64,000 nucleotides of DNA from the NCBI RefSeq assembly GCF_000293885.2, contig NZ_CP010945.1:620001-684000 (forward strand), in the 5' to 3' direction. The translations under genes and the position numbers were made by a program. The notes below the pieces were generated by a model. That model saw nothing but the letters and a program-made list of their open reading frames with translations, searched no databases and was not told where the DNA came from. This DNA comes from Pseudomonas fluorescens NCIMB 11764 (GTDB lineage Bacteria > Pseudomonadota > Gammaproteobacteria > Pseudomonadales > Pseudomonadaceae). This document shows positions 35,166 through 42,596 of the stretch, in pieces (within the stretch, counting starts at the first letter, position 1; each line of letters begins with the position of its first letter).

Positions 35166-36521
35166 ATGAATGCTCTAGCCCGCCGCGCTGCAGGCCTGCT
35201 GCTCAGCACAGTTTGTCTGCCACTTTCAGCCCTCGCTGCCGATCCGCAACCCACCCACGAATTCACCCTCGACAATGGCCTGAAGGTCGTCGTGCGTGAA
35301 GACCATCGTGCGCCGGTGGTGGTTTCCCAAGTCTGGTACAAGGTCGGTTCAAGCTACGAGACACCGGGGCAAACCGGCTTGTCCCATGCGCTGGAACACA
35401 TGATGTTCAAGGGCAGCGAGAAAGTCGGCCCCGGCGAGGCCTCGCTGATCCTGCGCGACCTCGGCGCGGAAGAGAACGCGTTCACCAGCGACGACTTCAC
35501 TGCCTACTATCAAGTGCTGGCCCGCGACCGTCTGGGCGTGGCCTTCGAACTCGAAGCGGACCGCATGGCCAGCCTGCGCCTGCCGGCTGACGAATTCGCC
35601 CGCGAAATCGAAGTCATCAAAGAAGAACGCCGCTTGCGCACTGACGACAAGCCGATGTCCAAGGCCTACGAACGCTTCAAGGCCATGGCTTACCCGGCCA
35701 GCGGCTATCACACGCCGACCATCGGCTGGATGGCGGACCTCGACCGCATGAAAGTCGAAGAGCTGCGCCACTGGTACCAATCCTGGTACGTGCCGAACAA
35801 CGCCACGCTGGTGGTGGTCGGCGACGTGACCCCGGAAGAGGTCAAAACCCTGGCCCAGCGCTATTTCGGTCCGATCGCCAAGCGTGATGTGCCGCCGGCG
35901 AAAATCCCGATGGAACTGGCCGAACCCGGCGAGCGGCAGATCACCCTGCATGTGCAGACGCAATTGCCGAGCCTGATGCTGGGCTTCAACGTACCGAGCA
36001 TCGCCACCGCTCAAGACAAGCGTTCAGTCAACGCCTTGCGCCTGATCTCGGCCCTGCTCGACGGCGGCTACAGCGGACGCATCCCGACACAACTGGAACG
36101 CGGCGAAGAGCTGGTGTCCGGCGGCTCGTCGAGCTACGACGCCTACACCCGCGGCGACAGCCTGTTCACGCTTTCGGCAACGCCGAACACCCAGAAGAAC
36201 AAAACCATGGCCCAGGCCGAAGCCGGGTTGTGGAAGCTGCTCGAACAGCTGAAAACCACCGCGCCATCGGCCGAAGAGCTGGAGCGCGTGCGGGCCCAGG
36301 TGATTGCCGGCCTGGTTTACGAGCGTGACTCGATCACCAGCCAGGCGACCGCCATCGGCCAACTGGAAACGGTCGGCCTGTCGTGGAAGCTGATGGACAC
36401 CGAACTGGCCGAACTGGAAAGCGTCACGCCAGAGGACATCCAGAAAGCCGCCAAGCTGTATTTCACCCGCGAACGTCTCAGCGTCGCCCATGTCCTGCCA
36501 CTGGAGACGACTCATGAGTGA
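35166..36521 (+). CDS. Exported M16 zinc metallopeptidase, catalytic subunit
   Basis: 451 residues. The signal peptide (MNALARRAAGLLLSTVCLPLSALAA) predicts a periplasmic protein. The inverted zinc motif HxxEH is HALEH at residues 74-78, with the third ligand in the EVIKEER segment about 75 residues on. It matches pitrilysin-type M16B peptidases that pair with a non-catalytic partner. The stop overlaps the next gene by 8 bases. The substrate is unknown. A close relative forms the first half of the fusion protein at 38762. Confidence 0.9.
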   Translation: MNALARRAAGLLLSTVCLPLSALAADPQPTHEFTLDNGLKVVVREDHRAPVVVSQVWYKVGSSYETPGQTGLSHALEHMMFKGSEKVGPGEASLILRDLGAEENAFTSDDFTAYYQVLARDRLGVAFELEADRMASLRLPADEFAREIEVIKEERRLRTDDKPMSKAYERFKAMAYPASGYHTPTIGWMADLDRMKVEELRHWYQSWYVPNNATLVVVGDVTPEEVKTLAQRYFGPIAKRDVPPAKIPMELAEPGERQITLHVQTQLPSLMLGFNVPSIATAQDKRSVNALRLISALLDGGYSGRIPTQLERGEELVSGGSSSYDAYTRGDSLFTLSATPNTQKNKTMAQAEAGLWKLLEQLKTTAPSAEELERVRAQVIAGLVYERDSITSQATAIGQLETVGLSWKLMDTELAELESVTPEDIQKAAKLYFTRERLSVAHVLPLETTHE

Positions 36522-38004
36522 GCGTAAAAAACCACGTCTGGCCCTGATTGGCCTGATTGCTGTTGCCCTGATCGGCTCCGCGGCCTTCTATTTCTCGAAG
36601 ACTGACGAATCCATCGCCAGCGAAGCCCTCGACAAGGCCAAGTCCAGCCAGAAGCTGCAATCGCTGGCCGAACTCGACGGCAAGGCGCCGAGTCGCCGCA
36701 CGCTGGACGTACAGACCTGGAACACGGCCGAAGGCGCCAAGGTGCTGTTCGTCGAGGCCCGCGAGTTGCCGATGTTCGACATGCGCCTGATCTTCGCCGC
36801 CGGCAGCAGCCAGGACGGCGATGCGCCGGGCCTGGCCGTGCTGACCAACGCAATGCTCAACGAAGGCGTGGCCGGCAAAGATGTTGGCGCCATTGCCCAG
36901 GGCTTTGAAGGCCTGGGTGCCGACTTCGGCAACGGCGCGTTCAAGGACATGGCACTGGCCTCGTTGCGCAGCCTCAGCGCCGCGGACAAACGCGAGCCCG
37001 CACTGAAACTGTTCTCCGAAGTCGTCGGCAAACCGACCTTCCCCGCCGATTCGTTTGCGCGCATCAAGAACCAGATGCTCGCCGGCTTCGAATACCAGAA
37101 ACAGAACCCCGGCAAACTCGCCAGCATCGAGCTGATGAACCGCTTGTACGGCGACCACCCTTACGCGCATTCCAGCGATGGCACGGCGAAAACCGTTCCA
37201 GCCATTACCCTGGCTCAGTTGAAGGCGTTCCATGAGAAAGCCTACGCCGCCGGCAACGTGGTGATTGCGCTGGTGGGCGACCTGTCCCGCGCCGAAGCCG
37301 AGGCGATGGCTGCGCAAGTCTCCGGCGCGCTGCCGAAAGGCCCTGCCCTGGCGAAATTGCCGCAACCGGACGAGCCAAAAGCCAGCATCGGCCACATCGA
37401 GTTCCCGTCCAAGCAGACCAACCTGATGCTCGCGCAACTGGGCATCGACCGTGACGACCCGGATTACGCCGCGCTGTCCATGGGCAACCAGATCCTCGGC
37501 GGCGGTGGGTTTGGCACCCGTTTGATGAGCGAAGTGCGCGAGAAGCGCGGCCTGACGTACGGCGTGTATTCGGGCTTTACCCCGATGCAGGCGCGCGGCC
37601 CGTTCATGATCAATCTGCAGACCCGTGCCGAGATGAGTGAAGGCACGCTGAAACTGGTGCAGGATGTGCTCGCCGACTACCTTAAAACCGGACCGACCGA
37701 GAAAGAACTCGACGACGCCAAGCGTGAACTGGCCGGCAGCTTCCCGCTGTCCACCGCCAGCAACGCGGATATCGTCGGCCAGCTCGGCGCGATGGGGTTC
37801 TACAACCTGCCGTTGAGCTATCTGGAGGACTTCATGCAGCAGTCCCAAAGCCTGACCGTCGAGCAAGTCAAAACGGCACTGAACAAACACCTGAGCACGG
37901 ACAAAATGGTCATCGTCAGCGCTGGCCCGACCGTGCCGCAAAAGCCGTTACCGGCCCCTACTGATAAACCTGCCGAGCAGCCGCTCGGGGTTCCGGAGCA
38001 TTAA
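36514..38004 (+). CDS. M16 peptidase-like partner subunit, membrane anchored, non-catalytic
   Basis: 496 residues. A basic start (MSERKKPR) and one hydrophobic helix (LALIGLIAVALIGSAAFYF) suggest an inner-membrane anchor facing the periplasm. The fold is M16 but HxxEH is absent; the Arg-Tyr substrate-binding pair of the partner subunit is in REKRGLTYGVYS. It starts inside the preceding gene, so the two subunits are made together. The rsmD start codon overlaps its end. Confidence 0.88.
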   Translation: MSERKKPRLALIGLIAVALIGSAAFYFSKTDESIASEALDKAKSSQKLQSLAELDGKAPSRRTLDVQTWNTAEGAKVLFVEARELPMFDMRLIFAAGSSQDGDAPGLAVLTNAMLNEGVAGKDVGAIAQGFEGLGADFGNGAFKDMALASLRSLSAADKREPALKLFSEVVGKPTFPADSFARIKNQMLAGFEYQKQNPGKLASIELMNRLYGDHPYAHSSDGTAKTVPAITLAQLKAFHEKAYAAGNVVIALVGDLSRAEAEAMAAQVSGALPKGPALAKLPQPDEPKASIGHIEFPSKQTNLMLAQLGIDRDDPDYAALSMGNQILGGGGFGTRLMSEVREKRGLTYGVYSGFTPMQARGPFMINLQTRAEMSEGTLKLVQDVLADYLKTGPTEKELDDAKRELAGSFPLSTASNADIVGQLGAMGFYNLPLSYLEDFMQQSQSLTVEQVKTALNKHLSTDKMVIVSAGPTVPQKPLPAPTDKPAEQPLGVPEH

Positions 38005-38615
38005 TGGCCACTCGTCCTAAAAAACCTGTTCACAACGTGCACAACGGCGTGAATCAACTGCGCATCATCGGCGGTGAATGGGGCAGCCGAAAGCTGAGCT
38101 TCCCCGATGCACCCGGCCTGCGCCCCACGCCAGACCGAGTGCGTGAAACCTTGTTCAACTGGCTTGCACCTTATGTGCCCGGGGCCAAGGTCTTTGACCC
38201 GTTCGCCGGCAGCGGCGCGCTGTTCCTCGAGGCGCTGTCCCGTGGCGCGGCGATGGGCCAGGCGCTGGACGCCAGCAACATCGCCGTCTCAAGCATCAAG
38301 GAACATCTGGGCACCCTGCGCTGCACCACCGGCCAGATCCAGACGGCCGATGCCCTGCGCTACCTGGAAACCCAGCCAGCAGTGGCTTACGACCTGGTGT
38401 TCCTCGATCCGCCGTTCAACCAGAACCTGTTGCCCACCGTCTGCACTCTGCTGGAAGAGCGCCAATGGCTGGCGAACGACGCCTGGGTGTACACCGAGAG
38501 CGAAACCGCCCCTTCGACGCTTGGTTTGCCGGCGAACTGGCGCCTGCACCGCGAGCAGAAATCCGGGCGCGTCTACTACTCGCTGTGGCAGCGAAGCACT
38601 GAAGTGTCTTCTTAA
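38004..38615 (+). CDS. rsmD: 16S rRNA (guanine-966-N2)-methyltransferase RsmD
   Basis: 203 residues. It begins with an ATG that shares a base with the upstream TAA. Family signatures: LRIIGGEWGSRKLSFPD, GLRPTPDRVRETLFNWL, FDPFAGSGALFLEALSRGA (SAM site) and the catalytic LVFLDPPFNQNLL. The C-terminal segment ends YYSLWQRSTEVSS. It modifies G966 in the small ribosomal subunit. Confidence 0.95.
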   Translation: MATRPKKPVHNVHNGVNQLRIIGGEWGSRKLSFPDAPGLRPTPDRVRETLFNWLAPYVPGAKVFDPFAGSGALFLEALSRGAAMGQALDASNIAVSSIKEHLGTLRCTTGQIQTADALRYLETQPAVAYDLVFLDPPFNQNLLPTVCTLLEERQWLANDAWVYTESETAPSTLGLPANWRLHREQKSGRVYYSLWQRSTEVSS

Positions 38616-38623
38616 AGTAATCA

Positions 38624-38649
38624 CCTGGACGGCAAACCGTCCGTCCAGG
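38624..38649. terminator. Stem-loop after rsmD (possible terminator)
   Basis: A 9-bp stem CCTGGACGG / CCGTCCAGG with an 8-base loop begins 9 bases after the rsmD stop. There is no T-run on the plus strand, so termination is uncertain. Confidence 0.4.
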
Positions 38650-38761
38650 GCGCCCTCCCGCTTTCTCAAACAGCAACATACCCGGTTTGCCTGATTCTTT
38701 TCCTTTAGTTCATTGTGAACTTGCGAAACAACTCGCATGGACGCAAAGGACTATTAACGGA

Positions 38762-41443
38762 ATGAAAGTATTAACTAACGAGACAACTTCCAGTTCGACT
38801 ACCGAGTTCACACTCGATAATGGCCTCAAGGTCATTGTGCGCGAGGATCATCGGGCCCCGGTGGTCGCCTCCCAGGTCTGGTACAAGGTCGGCGCCAGCT
38901 ACGAACCTCCGGGTCAGACCGGCCTGTCCCACGCGCTGGAACACATGATGTTCAAGGGCAGCAAAAAAGTCGGCCCGGGCAAAATCCTGCCACTGCTGCG
39001 CGAGCTCGGTATCCAATTCAACGCCGTCACCGGTAACGACTTCACCGCGTACTACCAAACGCTGGCTCGTGATCGTCTGGGCGTGGCCTTCGAACTGGAA
39101 GCGGACCGCATGGCCAATCTGCTTCTGCCGGCCGACGAATTTGCCCGGGAAATCGAAGTCATCAAGGAAGAACGTCGTCAGACCACCGACGACAAACCAA
39201 TGGCCAAGGCCTACGAACGCTTCAAGGCCATGGCCTACCCGGCCAGCGGTTACCACACGCCGACCATCGGCTGGATGGCTGACCTCGACCGGATGAAGGT
39301 CGAAGAACTGCGTCACTGGTATGAGTCCTGGTATGCGCCGAACAACGCCACGCTGGTGGTGGTCGGCGACGTGACCGCGGACGAAGTCAAAGCCCAGGCC
39401 CAGCGCTACTTCGGCCCGATCGCCAAACGCGATGTACCGGCCGCGAAAAGACCGCTGGAACTGGCCAGGCCCGGTGAGCGCCAGATGACTCTGCACGTGA
39501 AGACGCAATTGCCCAGCCTGATGCTGGCCTTCAACGTGCCGAGTATCGCGACCGCCAAAGACAAGCGTTCAGTGCATGCCTTGCGCCTGATTTCGGCCTT
39601 GCTCGGCGATGGCCACAGCGCGCGCATCCCGACGCAACTGCAACGCGATGAAGAGCTGGTGTCCGACGGTACGTCGAGCTATAGCGCCTACACCCGGGGC
39701 GACAGCCTGTTTCTCCTGTCGGCAACACCCAACAGCCATAAAAACAAAACCATCGCCCAGGCCGAAGCCGGTTTGTGGAGGCTGCTGGACCAGCTGAAAA
39801 CCACACCGCCGACCACTGAAGAACTGGGACGCGTACGCGCACAAGTCATCGCCGGGCTGGTTTACGAGCGCGACTCGATCACCCGCCAGGCCAGCGCTAT
39901 CGGCCGACTGGAAACGTTCGGACTGTCGTGGAAATGGATGGACACCGAACTGGCCGAGCTGGAAAGCGTAACGCCAGAAGACATCCAGAAAGCCGCCACG
40001 CTGTATTTCACCCGCGAGCGGCTCAGCGTCGCCCATATCCTGCCAATGGAGACCAATAAAGAGGATGGGGATGAGTCCGGCGACGGCGAAGTGCCAGACA
40101 AGGAGAACTCCAGCCAAATGCTGCAATCGCTGGCTGAGCTCGACGGCAAGGCGCCAAGTCATCGCCTGCTCGACATACAGACCTGGAATACCACCGAAGG
40201 CGCCAACGTGTTGTTCGCCGAGGCCAGAGGGTTACCGATGTTCGACGTGCGTCTGACCTTCGCTGCCGGCAGCAGCCGGGATGGAGACACTCCAGGCCTG
40301 GCCATGCTGACAAACTTGATGCTCAACGAAGGTGTTGCCGGCAGTGATGCCAACGCTATTGCCCAGGGTTTCGAAAGCCTGGGCGCACAGTATGCCCCCG
40401 GCACTGATCTGGATACGGCGCAAGTCTCCCTGCGCAGCCTCAGCGCCAAGGACAAACGCGATCCGGCACTGACCCTCTTCGCCGAAGTCGTAGGCAAGCC
40501 AACCTTCCCTGACGACGCGCATGCGCGCCTGCGCAATCAGACCCTCGCCGCTTTCGAAGATCAGAAGCATGACCCGGGCAAACGGGCGAGCCTGGAGTTG
40601 ATGAACCGCTTGTATGGCGATCATCCGTACGCGCATGCCAGCGATGGCACGGCGCAAGCCATTCCGTCCATCACCCCGACCCAGCTGCGCGCGTTCCACG
40701 AAAAAGCCTACGCGGCCGGCAACGTGGTGATCTCGTTGGTGGGTGACTTGTCCCGTGCCGAAGCGGAAGCCATTGCCGCGAAGATATCCGCGACCCTGCC
40801 CGAAGGCCCGGCCCTGGCGAAAGTCCCGCAACCGATGGAACCCAATGCCAGCAAAAGCCACATCGAATTCCCATCGCAACAGACCATTCTGATGCTCGCA
40901 CAACTGGGCATCGACCATGACAATCCAGACTACGCGGCACTGTTCATGGGCAACCAGATCCTTGGCGGCGGTTTCGGCACTCGACTGATGAGCGAAGTCC
41001 GCGAAAAACGTGGCCTGACGTACGGGGTTGTTTCAGCCTTCACGCCGATGCAGGCGCGCGGTCCGTTCATGATCAAACTGCAGACCCGCGCCGAAACAAG
41101 CGAAGGCACGCTGAAACTGGTACAGGACGTGCTCGCCGACTACCTTAAAACCGGACCGACCGAAAAAGAACTGGCTGATGCCAAACGCGCGTTGGCCGGC
41201 AGCTTCCCGCAGTCCACTGCGAGCAACGCACACATCGTCGCGAAACTGGCGTCTATCGGCTTTTACAACCTGCCGTTGAATCATCTGGACGACTTCATGC
41301 AGCAGTCCCAGCGTCTCACCGTAGCGCAGGTCAAAACCGCATTGAACAAACACCTGAGCATGGACAAATTGGTCATCATCAGCGCAGGACCGACCGTCCC
41401 GCAAAAGCCATTGCCGGAGCCTGCAGATAAACCTGCCAGGTAA
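38762..41443 (+). CDS. Fused two-domain M16 peptidase without export signal (duplicate of the upstream pair)
   Basis: 893 residues from the ATG at 38762. The first half copies the catalytic subunit at 35166 with long identical runs and an intact zinc site (HALEH at residues 57-61, EVIKEER from 132). The second half copies the partner subunit at 36514, including REKRGLTYGV. The signal peptide is replaced by a short polar start (MKVLTNETTSSSTTEF). The membrane anchor is replaced by an acidic linker (EDGDESGDGEVPDKENSS). The product should be cytoplasmic and a single chain. AAGGA lies 11 bases before the start, which is far; an in-frame ATG upstream (38687) is possible but also gives no signal. 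The substrate is unknown. Confidence 0.88.
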   Translation: MKVLTNETTSSSTTEFTLDNGLKVIVREDHRAPVVASQVWYKVGASYEPPGQTGLSHALEHMMFKGSKKVGPGKILPLLRELGIQFNAVTGNDFTAYYQTLARDRLGVAFELEADRMANLLLPADEFAREIEVIKEERRQTTDDKPMAKAYERFKAMAYPASGYHTPTIGWMADLDRMKVEELRHWYESWYAPNNATLVVVGDVTADEVKAQAQRYFGPIAKRDVPAAKRPLELARPGERQMTLHVKTQLPSLMLAFNVPSIATAKDKRSVHALRLISALLGDGHSARIPTQLQRDEELVSDGTSSYSAYTRGDSLFLLSATPNSHKNKTIAQAEAGLWRLLDQLKTTPPTTEELGRVRAQVIAGLVYERDSITRQASAIGRLETFGLSWKWMDTELAELESVTPEDIQKAATLYFTRERLSVAHILPMETNKEDGDESGDGEVPDKENSSQMLQSLAELDGKAPSHRLLDIQTWNTTEGANVLFAEARGLPMFDVRLTFAAGSSRDGDTPGLAMLTNLMLNEGVAGSDANAIAQGFESLGAQYAPGTDLDTAQVSLRSLSAKDKRDPALTLFAEVVGKPTFPDDAHARLRNQTLAAFEDQKHDPGKRASLELMNRLYGDHPYAHASDGTAQAIPSITPTQLRAFHEKAYAAGNVVISLVGDLSRAEAEAIAAKISATLPEGPALAKVPQPMEPNASKSHIEFPSQQTILMLAQLGIDHDNPDYAALFMGNQILGGGFGTRLMSEVREKRGLTYGVVSAFTPMQARGPFMIKLQTRAETSEGTLKLVQDVLADYLKTGPTEKELADAKRALAGSFPQSTASNAHIVAKLASIGFYNLPLNHLDDFMQQSQRLTVAQVKTALNKHLSMDKLVIISAGPTVPQKPLPEPADKPAR

Positions 41444-41542
41444 TTGCTCAATCTGTCAGGCGACTTTCGCAGCATCGGCCAGCAGAAAACCGAGCGACTC
41501 TACTGTTCGTTGTGGCAACGTATGGTAGAGATCGCCGGTTAA
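41444..41542 (+). pseudogene. Remnant of a second rsmD (C-terminal codons only)
   Basis: Directly after the TAA of the M16 fusion and in the same frame, 32 codons and a stop read LLNLSGDF ... QQKTERLYCSLWQRMVEIAG. This aligns without gaps to the end of RsmD (TLGLPANW ... EQKSGRVYYSLWQRSTEVSS), including the identical SLWQR. The start, SAM site and catalytic motif are missing. It fits a deleted second copy of rsmD. Confidence 0.7.
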
Positions 41543-41597
41543 CCCACCGGCCTGAAAAGGTGCGCACAGGTTGCGCACCGCTGCATCGAGAGCCATC

Positions 41598-42596
41598 GTG
41601 TCTTTTCCGCCAGAACGCTTCACCCCCGCCTTCGGCCTTGGCAACCCGCACTTGCAAACCTTGTGGGGACCGCTGTGGCGCAAAACCACGCACATCGAAC
41701 GCGAGCGCGAACGCTTGTGGCTCGAGGACGGTGATTTCCTTGACCTGGACTGGCACGGTCCGCACCGCGCCGATACGCCGCTGGTGCTGGTGTTGCACGG
41801 CCTGACCGGTTCCTCCAATTCACCTTACGTGGCCGGCGTGCAGAAAGTACTGGGTGCCCAGGGCTGGGCCAGCGTCGCGCTGAACTGGCGCGGCTGCTCG
41901 GGGGAACCGAATCTGTTGCCACGCAGCTACCATTCCGGTGCCAGTGAAGACCTCGCCGAAGCCATCAGACACCTGCGGGCCAAACGACCGCTCGCGCCGC
42001 TGTACGCGGTCGGTTATTCCCTCGGCGGCAACGTTTTGCTCAAACACTTGGGCGAGACCGGCAGCGACAGCGGCGTGGTCGGCGCCGTGGCAGTGTCGGT
42101 GCCGTTTCGGCTCGATCAGTGCGCCGACCGTATCGGCCAGGGTTTCTCGAAGGTGTATCAGGCGCACTTCATGCGCGAGATGGTCGCCTACATCAAGAAC
42201 AAGCAGCGGCAGTTCCAGCATGACGGGCGCGAGGATGGCCTGGCGAAGCTGGCCGCCCTGGGCTCGCTGGAAAACATGCGCACCTTCTGGGATTTCGATG
42301 GCCGGGTCACCGCGCCGCTGCATGGTTTCACCGATGCACAGGATTACTATCGCCGTGCCTCGAGCCGCTATTTCCTTGGGGAGATTCGCACGCCGACGCT
42401 GATCATTCAGGCCGCCGACGACCCGTTCGTCTTCCCTCACAGCCTGCCGTCAGCCGAGGAATTGTCCGCCTGCACCCAGTTCGAGCTGCAAGCCAGGGGC
42501 GGGCATGTCGGCTTCGTCGATGGCACGTTCCGGCAACCGGGTTACTACCTGGAACGGCGCATCCCGCAGTGGCTGGCCGCCGTGGGTCGCGGGTAA
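41598..42596 (+). CDS. YheT-family alpha/beta hydrolase
   Basis: 332 residues from the GTG at 41598 (MSFPPERFTPAFGLGNPHLQTLWG), with GAGAG upstream; an in-frame TTG at 41571 is an alternative. The fold has LVLVLHGLTGSSNSPYV (oxyanion region), the nucleophile in VGYSLGGNVLLKHL, and a late His in RGGHVGFV. The family is described as carboxylesterase-like with unproved substrate. P. aeruginosa has a homologue at the same place (PA0368). Confidence 0.87.
   Translation: MSFPPERFTPAFGLGNPHLQTLWGPLWRKTTHIERERERLWLEDGDFLDLDWHGPHRADTPLVLVLHGLTGSSNSPYVAGVQKVLGAQGWASVALNWRGCSGEPNLLPRSYHSGASEDLAEAIRHLRAKRPLAPLYAVGYSLGGNVLLKHLGETGSDSGVVGAVAVSVPFRLDQCADRIGQGFSKVYQAHFMREMVAYIKNKQRQFQHDGREDGLAKLAALGSLENMRTFWDFDGRVTAPLHGFTDAQDYYRRASSRYFLGEIRTPTLIIQAADDPFVFPHSLPSAEELSACTQFELQARGGHVGFVDGTFRQPGYYLERRIPQWLAAVGRG

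Follow-up and report, generated by a model that had tools for sequence, protein, structure and literature searches.

The fused gene and its neighbors

The window, that is, the whole stretch of 64,000 nucleotides of Pseudomonas fluorescens NCIMB 11764 that was analyzed, contains a pair of M16 peptidase genes, designated pair 1, and a third gene in which copies of both are joined; all lie on the plus strand. The first gene of the pair (35166–36521) encodes a catalytic M16B subunit with Pfam M16 and M16_C matches, the zinc motif HALEH at residue 74, and, judged by hydropathy, a signal-like stretch within roughly 25 residues of the N terminus. The second (36490–38004) encodes the partner subunit, in which Pfam finds M16_C, with M16 below the cut-off, and which starts with a hydrophobic anchor at residues 17–35 (36538–36594; 19-residue hydropathy of 2.35). 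An rsmD-like methyltransferase gene follows at 38004–38615 (Pfam Cons_hypoth95), which we take to be rsmD and whose product ends in QRSTEVSS, as compared with QRMAEIAG in close relatives in which the site downstream is empty. A GC-rich inverted repeat, terminator-like on the minus strand, lies just past it at 38624–38649, where 0.5 would be expected by chance. The fused gene occupies 38762–41443 and was characterized from the open reading frame list, BLASTP, Pfam, comparison of carriers, dN/dS, and hydropathy as encoding a leaderless single-chain M16B protein of 893 residues from its ATG; a TTG at 38687 extends the open frame 25 codons upstream. It is followed by a decayed second copy of the 3′ end of rsmD (41461–41542), recognized by sequence comparison, and by an alpha/beta hydrolase gene (41571–42596; Pfam and locus comparison), which forms the right flank of the site.

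The N-terminal half of the fusion is identical to the catalytic subunit at 350 of 417 positions (84%) and the C-terminal half to the partner at 357 of 457 (78%) in BLASTP alignments, in agreement with the initial annotation, which had described the gene as joined copies of the two adjacent subunits. Pfam identifies two stretches of M16 and two of M16_C, with M16_C detected in each half; placements are given for the best M16 and the best M16_C stretch only. The partner half has lost one glycine from a run of four (GGGG to GGG) in all three carriers of the fusion. The gene is intact in two other genomes, at 95 and 89% identity, and is therefore not an assembly error. A PADLOC search returned no defense-system match for it. 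Three more M16_C matches are present in the genome of the window (G000:C1:1178036–1178557 and 462497–464152, in frames of 555 and 816 residues), and the 816-residue frame may, from its size, be PqqF.

The junction between the halves (40054–40069) consists of 16 bp in place of 95 bp in the pair (36509–36603). This net loss of 79 bp took out the stop codon of the catalytic gene, the partner's overlapping start, and its membrane anchor, and the two frames were thereby joined. The length of the junction is identical in the three carriers. The resulting linker, ETNKEDGDESGDGEVPDKENSSQ, is acidic and partly aligns with the segment that follows the anchor in the partner itself.

Signal-peptide and anchor assignments for the fusion, the catalytic subunit, and the partner are by hydropathy alone. 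The best 12-residue value near the N terminus is 2.0 for the catalytic subunit and 3.16 for the partner as compared with 0.8 (ATG) or 0.65 (TTG) for the fusion, and no 19-residue segment of the fusion exceeds 1.12, so that the scan detects no membrane-like segment. An upstream start that restores a signal peptide was considered and rejected because no start of the open frame gives a signal-like stretch; the initial annotation had named such a start as evidence against its view that both the signal peptide and the anchor are gone, and on this measure that view holds from either start codon. It had also presented a short polar start and an acidic linker as the replacements. The linker is indeed acidic, but the beginning of the protein does not appear to have been simply trimmed since the polar N terminus and the DNA leader ahead of it are shared with other leaderless M16-like genes, described below. 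Because export signals are absent, a change of compartment is likely, with the fusion predicted to be a soluble protein that remains in the cytosol.

Catalytic residues and a changed segment

The zinc motif HALEH is at residues 57–61 of the fusion (38930–38944), and Glu137 (39170–39172) is the probable third ligand by analogy with His51, His55, and Glu131 of SPH2681 (passages of PMC12731061 on that protein). The separation between His57 and Glu137, 80 residues, is the same as that between His51 and Glu131 in SPH2681 (same passages). The protein thus has an HxxEH motif with a third Glu in the range of about 75–80 residues beyond it, and it has two M16 halves with the R-Y motif in the partner half (Arg750 and Tyr754, 41009–41023, from a check of the residues), as is characteristic of M16B enzymes. 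HALEH, Glu137, and the R-Y motif are preserved in all three carriers; the retention of these elements noted in the initial annotation is correct.

A cluster of replacements follows the zinc motif. Fixed changes were defined as residues that are more than 95% conserved in the pair-1 rows of the alignment (329 positions in the N-half) and altered alike in all three fusions. Nine of the 21 in the N-half fall in residues 74–86 (38981–39019), a degree of clustering matched by none of 20,000 random placements (the largest had seven), for a 13-residue window that was picked after the cluster had been seen. When each fusion is compared with the catalytic subunit of its own genome, this segment has 13–14 nonsynonymous differences on 28–29 sites and 1–5 synonymous differences on about 10, and the remainder of the N-half has 61–69 nonsynonymous differences on about 900 sites and 106–112 synonymous differences on about 290. 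Clustering of fixed changes in the C-half (5 of 21 in 15 residues) is not significant (p = 0.054). The possibility that residues 74–86 were copied from another M16 gene was rejected, as the fetched loci include no better source. By analogy with other M16 proteins these residues would line the peptide chamber, and since the fixed changes cluster just past the zinc motif, they hint at an altered peptide preference or a new substrate.

Distribution, descent, and leaderless relatives

The fusion occurs in few soil Pseudomonas genomes, and three carriers were found. Among the matches listed for 398 genomes of the genus, in a list sorted by score in which a fusion would rank at the top, a single-frame fusion is present in two, the genome of the window (G000) and G005 (89% identical), and a match of any kind in 394. 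In a scan with one genome per species, the best 80 of 589 confirmed stretches contain one fusion, that of P. fluorescens PS858 (L038; 95%). Other samples gave 2 of 194 relatives (G000 and G005) and 1 of 398 genomes of the family (G000); the genus, relatives, family, and class samples overlap. In the class sample, 8 of 274 genomes gave matches within the E limit, including that of the window. The seven besides that of the window comprise G486, in which the subunits match separately, and six genomes with one stretch that covers both halves, interrupted in five of the six by 1–3 internal stops; in four of these five loci the longest frames are 458–482 residues. The sixth, the gammaproteobacterial locus L139 (G836:C1:592800–596300), has an open frame of 915 residues over both halves, 41% identical, in which a single codon, where the two subunits meet, could not be read. 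An anchor-like stretch follows this boundary and no clear signal-like stretch precedes HxxEH; the locus, which may be a fusion or an assembly flaw, was left out of the fusion count.

Both rsmD and the hydrolase gene are present in 76 of the 80 best loci, a sample that is skewed toward close relatives; one of the two is missing from the stretch in the other four. The interval between them is shorter than 300 nucleotides in 62 of the 76 and contains a second split M16 pair (pair 2) in 10 (L040, L044, L045, L048, L049, L050, L060, L070, L088, and L116), the fusion in one, leaderless M16-like genes in two (two in tandem in L073, one in L079), and a 1480-nucleotide insert with a degraded M16-like frame in one (L058). 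Pair 2 is also found at L137:6031–8831, in genome G246, where pair 1 is followed by rsmD, pair 2, a leaderless gene, and the hydrolase gene. A signal-like start and HALEH are kept in the pairs 2 that were studied closely (L040, L116, and L137). The site is empty in the relatives G262, G301, and G211. A second, decayed 3′ end of rsmD precedes the hydrolase gene in all three fusion loci and in L073 and L079, which therefore appear to trace to one insertion or duplication. For the 10 pair-2 loci and L058, the best match to such an end (E = 0.009) was located outside rsmD, and an exact-string comparison, the one check made in L137, gave no match there. The final codons of rsmD at occupied loci (38594–38615 in the window) encode ...WQRSA, WQRSPLAS, or WQRSTEVSS as compared with WQRMAEIAG in close empty-site relatives; the differing ends hint at a recurrent insertion point, and empty-site loci of other subgroups vary there too.

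A quick tree search was made with 72 of 122 rows. The three fusions form one clade (support of 100) inside the pair-1 rows of the fluorescens group and apart from pair 2, the 10 rows of which form a clade of their own (support of 100). Its precise position within the pair-1 rows is weakly supported, with SH-aLRT values of 80–94 for the fusion in this quick search, and is an open fork in a tree of the N-half (43 rows). Because the fusion groups inside the pair-1 tree, the split pair is ancestral. The reverse order, which the initial annotation had listed as a finding that would overturn its view, is rejected on this nesting and on the presence of a match in 394 of 398 genus genomes as compared with a fusion in two among the matches listed. 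Derivation of the fusion from pair 2 was also rejected, as pair 2 is an older clade, 51–57 and 42–46% identical to the two subunits of the pair in the window.

Between carriers, dN/dS by the NG86 method is 0.206, 0.217, and 0.287 for the fusion, 0.024–0.031 for the catalytic subunit, and 0.042–0.090 for the partner, so that constraint on the fusion is about 3–9 times weaker than on the pair. The pN/pS ratios of the fusion are 0.22–0.32, with synonymous in excess of nonsynonymous change (Fisher p = 7e-17, 3e-29, and 4e-19). This excess places the fusion under constraint rather than in free decay; the statement in the initial annotation that the gene is not decaying thus finds support in the purifying selection that its suggested dN/dS comparison reveals. 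As the pair is more tightly constrained, the evolution of the fusion may be partly relaxed.

The dS values of the fusion between carriers (0.118, 0.244, and 0.200) are about half of those for pair 1 and the hydrolase gene (0.24–0.70), and in all 11 of the 300-bp tiles downstream of the fusion and 13 of 19 upstream, the window is closer to the empty-site genome G262 than to the carrier PS858. The low dS and the tile comparison suggest that the fusion has spread laterally within the group. Against this, the rsmD dS for PS858 and G005 is 0.178 and that of the fusion is not below it, and in plain DNA identity to G005 the fusion tiles are no higher than the pair; the patchiness could possibly reflect loss from the empty-site relatives instead of lateral spread.

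The leaderless M16-like genes (L073:9500–12368, two in tandem in P. lini CC269; L079:9503–10738; and L137:8994–10244) encode proteins of 412–422 residues that begin M-N-[V/I/M]-x-T-[T/N]-E-L, are without HxxEH, and match M16_C only in Pfam. The first three compared are 36–55% identical to one another. The start M-[N/K]-x-x-[T/A]-[T/N]-E is common to them and the fusions, as is about 45 bp of highly conserved DNA leader ahead of the start. The fusion thus has the leader and polar N terminus of these genes, but not their single half that is without HxxEH, and they carry 0–3 of 25 fusion-specific residues, a count that is uninformative as to shared descent. The core of the leader, TGCGAAAYAACTCGCNNGGACGCA (38722–38745, with a 5-bp hairpin or inverted repeat at 38722–38737), is upstream of seven leaderless genes in six genomes: the three fusions, the two genes of L073, L079, and L137. 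It has a single occurrence in the genome of the window even when three mismatches are allowed and, at one mismatch or less, is found in 4 of 298 genus genomes (G000, G005, G208, which is 100% identical to L079, and G246), two of them fusion carriers. Comparison of the leader with DNA upstream of pair 1 gave no convincing similarity (best E = 0.3), and a search of Rfam gave no match; a small hairpin is possible (z of −2.3 to −4.3 in five sequences). In the region 38708–38745, an inverted repeat, GTTCA-TTG-TGAAC, is present only in the fusions (with the spacer CTG in G005) and is followed by the hairpin that is retained in the leaderless genes; the region may act as an operator or as an RNA element. 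The inverted repeat GTTCATTGTGAAC was rejected as a family-wide operator because it is not conserved in the leaderless cousins.

In other species the site is occupied by leaderless M16-like genes that share the leader of the fusion, and the route of origin is therefore richer than that proposed in the initial annotation. The latter had also given many inactivated copies in sister strains as a finding that would count against it; genes without HxxEH do occur in three genomes, and one more, L058, has a degraded frame, but they are few. All leaderless relatives found are without HxxEH, which indicates that a leaderless copy can persist without this motif.

Proposed origin and role, and comparison with known M16 systems

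We propose, with a probability of roughly 0.6, that the fusion is a soluble, cytosolic, one-chain M16B zinc peptidase with an altered chamber that arose at the rsmD site from the body of the pair and the 5′ end of the leaderless family. It would have originated at a recurrent site of M16 duplication between rsmD and the alpha/beta hydrolase gene, where a 5′ leader and short polar N terminus from a leaderless M16-like gene were joined to a body copied from the neighboring exported pair; the junction loss deleted the stop, second start, and anchor and fused the frames. With no export signals the product would remain in the cytosol, where, as in the rest of the family, the two linked halves may close on unfolded peptides within an inner chamber. 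The HxxEH...E site is predicted from its motifs to cut these peptides, and the fixed changes just past it may have changed which are preferred.

The body of the fusion falls within pair 1, whereas the free tree sets the leaderless genes beside pair 2, on long branches and with weak support (86/67), and we therefore lean toward a chimera. A different history, with the same product, would have an early leaderless copy of the pair found the whole family, the fusion staying active while the others diverged rapidly, shedding both the partner half and HxxEH. The leader and start common to all of these genes and the duplicated rsmD 3′ end of the fusion loci, L073, and L079 are consistent with such a common ancestor, and a clade of fusion and leaderless genes is not rejected (AU p = 0.425). 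However, the leaderless bodies are 29–36% identical to the pair as compared with 84% for the fusion and, as noted, the free tree places them elsewhere, and we consider this history somewhat unlikely. It is unlikely, too, that the fusion is a duplicate under relaxed constraint that is being lost and has no lasting role, with the relatives lacking HxxEH in L073, L079, and L137 and the degraded frame in L058 as the next stage. Its weaker constraint relative to the pair and its rare, patchy occurrence next to empty sites would be expected of such a gene, but 893 codons are open in all three carriers with the catalytic residues retained and a strong synonymous excess, the changes in the N-half are clustered rather than spread, and the leader is highly conserved.

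The same retention of catalytic and partner motifs in every carrier makes a non-proteolytic binder or scaffold improbable, although the four leaderless cousins, which match M16_C alone, may be of this kind. Still less probable is a non-classical route to the periplasm or the outside, by which fusion and loss of the anchor would just have made a soluble form of an exported enzyme. Both parents are exported, judged by sequence, but neither start codon of the fusion gives a signal-like stretch or anchor, the polar start is kept in the three carriers, and neither of the two flanking genes, which this check covered, is a secretion gene according to Pfam.

The parent pair is still adjacent and empty-site relatives are at hand, so that the cytosolic one-chain peptidase that we favor would represent a fairly recent and traceable passage from a two-chain exported protease to a one-chain protease without export signals. 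It makes testable both the conversion of an M16 heterodimer to a single chain and the adaptation of an active site to a new compartment. As a bolder and rather doubtful conjecture, the rsmD site of fluorescens-group Pseudomonas could repeatedly give rise to cytosolic M16 proteins under one shared, hairpin-bearing leader. These would include fast-changing, catalytically dead half-enzymes and, at least once, an active enzyme revived by capture of the body of the exported pair; its chamber would be reshaped to suit one cytosolic peptide in particular, such as one that is maturing or invading, and recombination would spread it between species.

The solved chains nearest to the fusion are 3GWB (2e-207, residues 459–885) and 4NNZ (5e-189, residues 11–435), both presumably from Pseudomonas; these are separate subunits, and matches to solved chains of PqqL and FusC are far weaker (3e-19 for 6OFS and 4e-17 for 6BRS), which places the fusion outside the FusC/PqqL lineage. 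Neither 3GWB nor 4NNZ is named in any paper of the open-licence literature searched, the titles and abstract openings of which also gave no description of the fusion gene or the leaderless family; on that basis, the leaderless cousins without HxxEH would be an undescribed set of M16-like proteins. Pair 1, whose P. aeruginosa orthologues we take to be PA0371 and PA0372 and to which 4NNZ (catalytic) and 3GWB (partner) are the nearest solved chains, aligns with the fusion over whole halves. It differs in having separate chains with a signal peptide and an anchor; the fusion, with one chain and neither signal, is not its orthologue.

The heterodimeric M16B peptidase SPH2681/SPH2682 of Sphingomonas (3AMJ) resembles the fusion in HALEH, the spacing to Glu, and the combination of an active and an inactive subunit but is composed of two chains (passages of PMC12731061). 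AlbF/AlbE and PqqF, which function in maturation of peptide natural products, use a chamber to process short peptides (PMC12731061, in part), as is proposed for the fusion; the genes that flank the fusion are those for RsmD and the hydrolase. A parallel in architecture is provided by FusC from Pectobacterium and PqqL from Escherichia coli, in which both M16B halves are linked in one chain (PMC12731061, in part). According to passages of PMC12731061 and PMC6793856 these are periplasmic, PqqL having a cleaved signal peptide and FusC being tied to TonB-dependent import (PMC6793856), whereas the fusion has no signal-like stretch by hydropathy. Single-chain M16B enzymes are thus already known; it is the leaderless, putatively cytosolic variant that is new.
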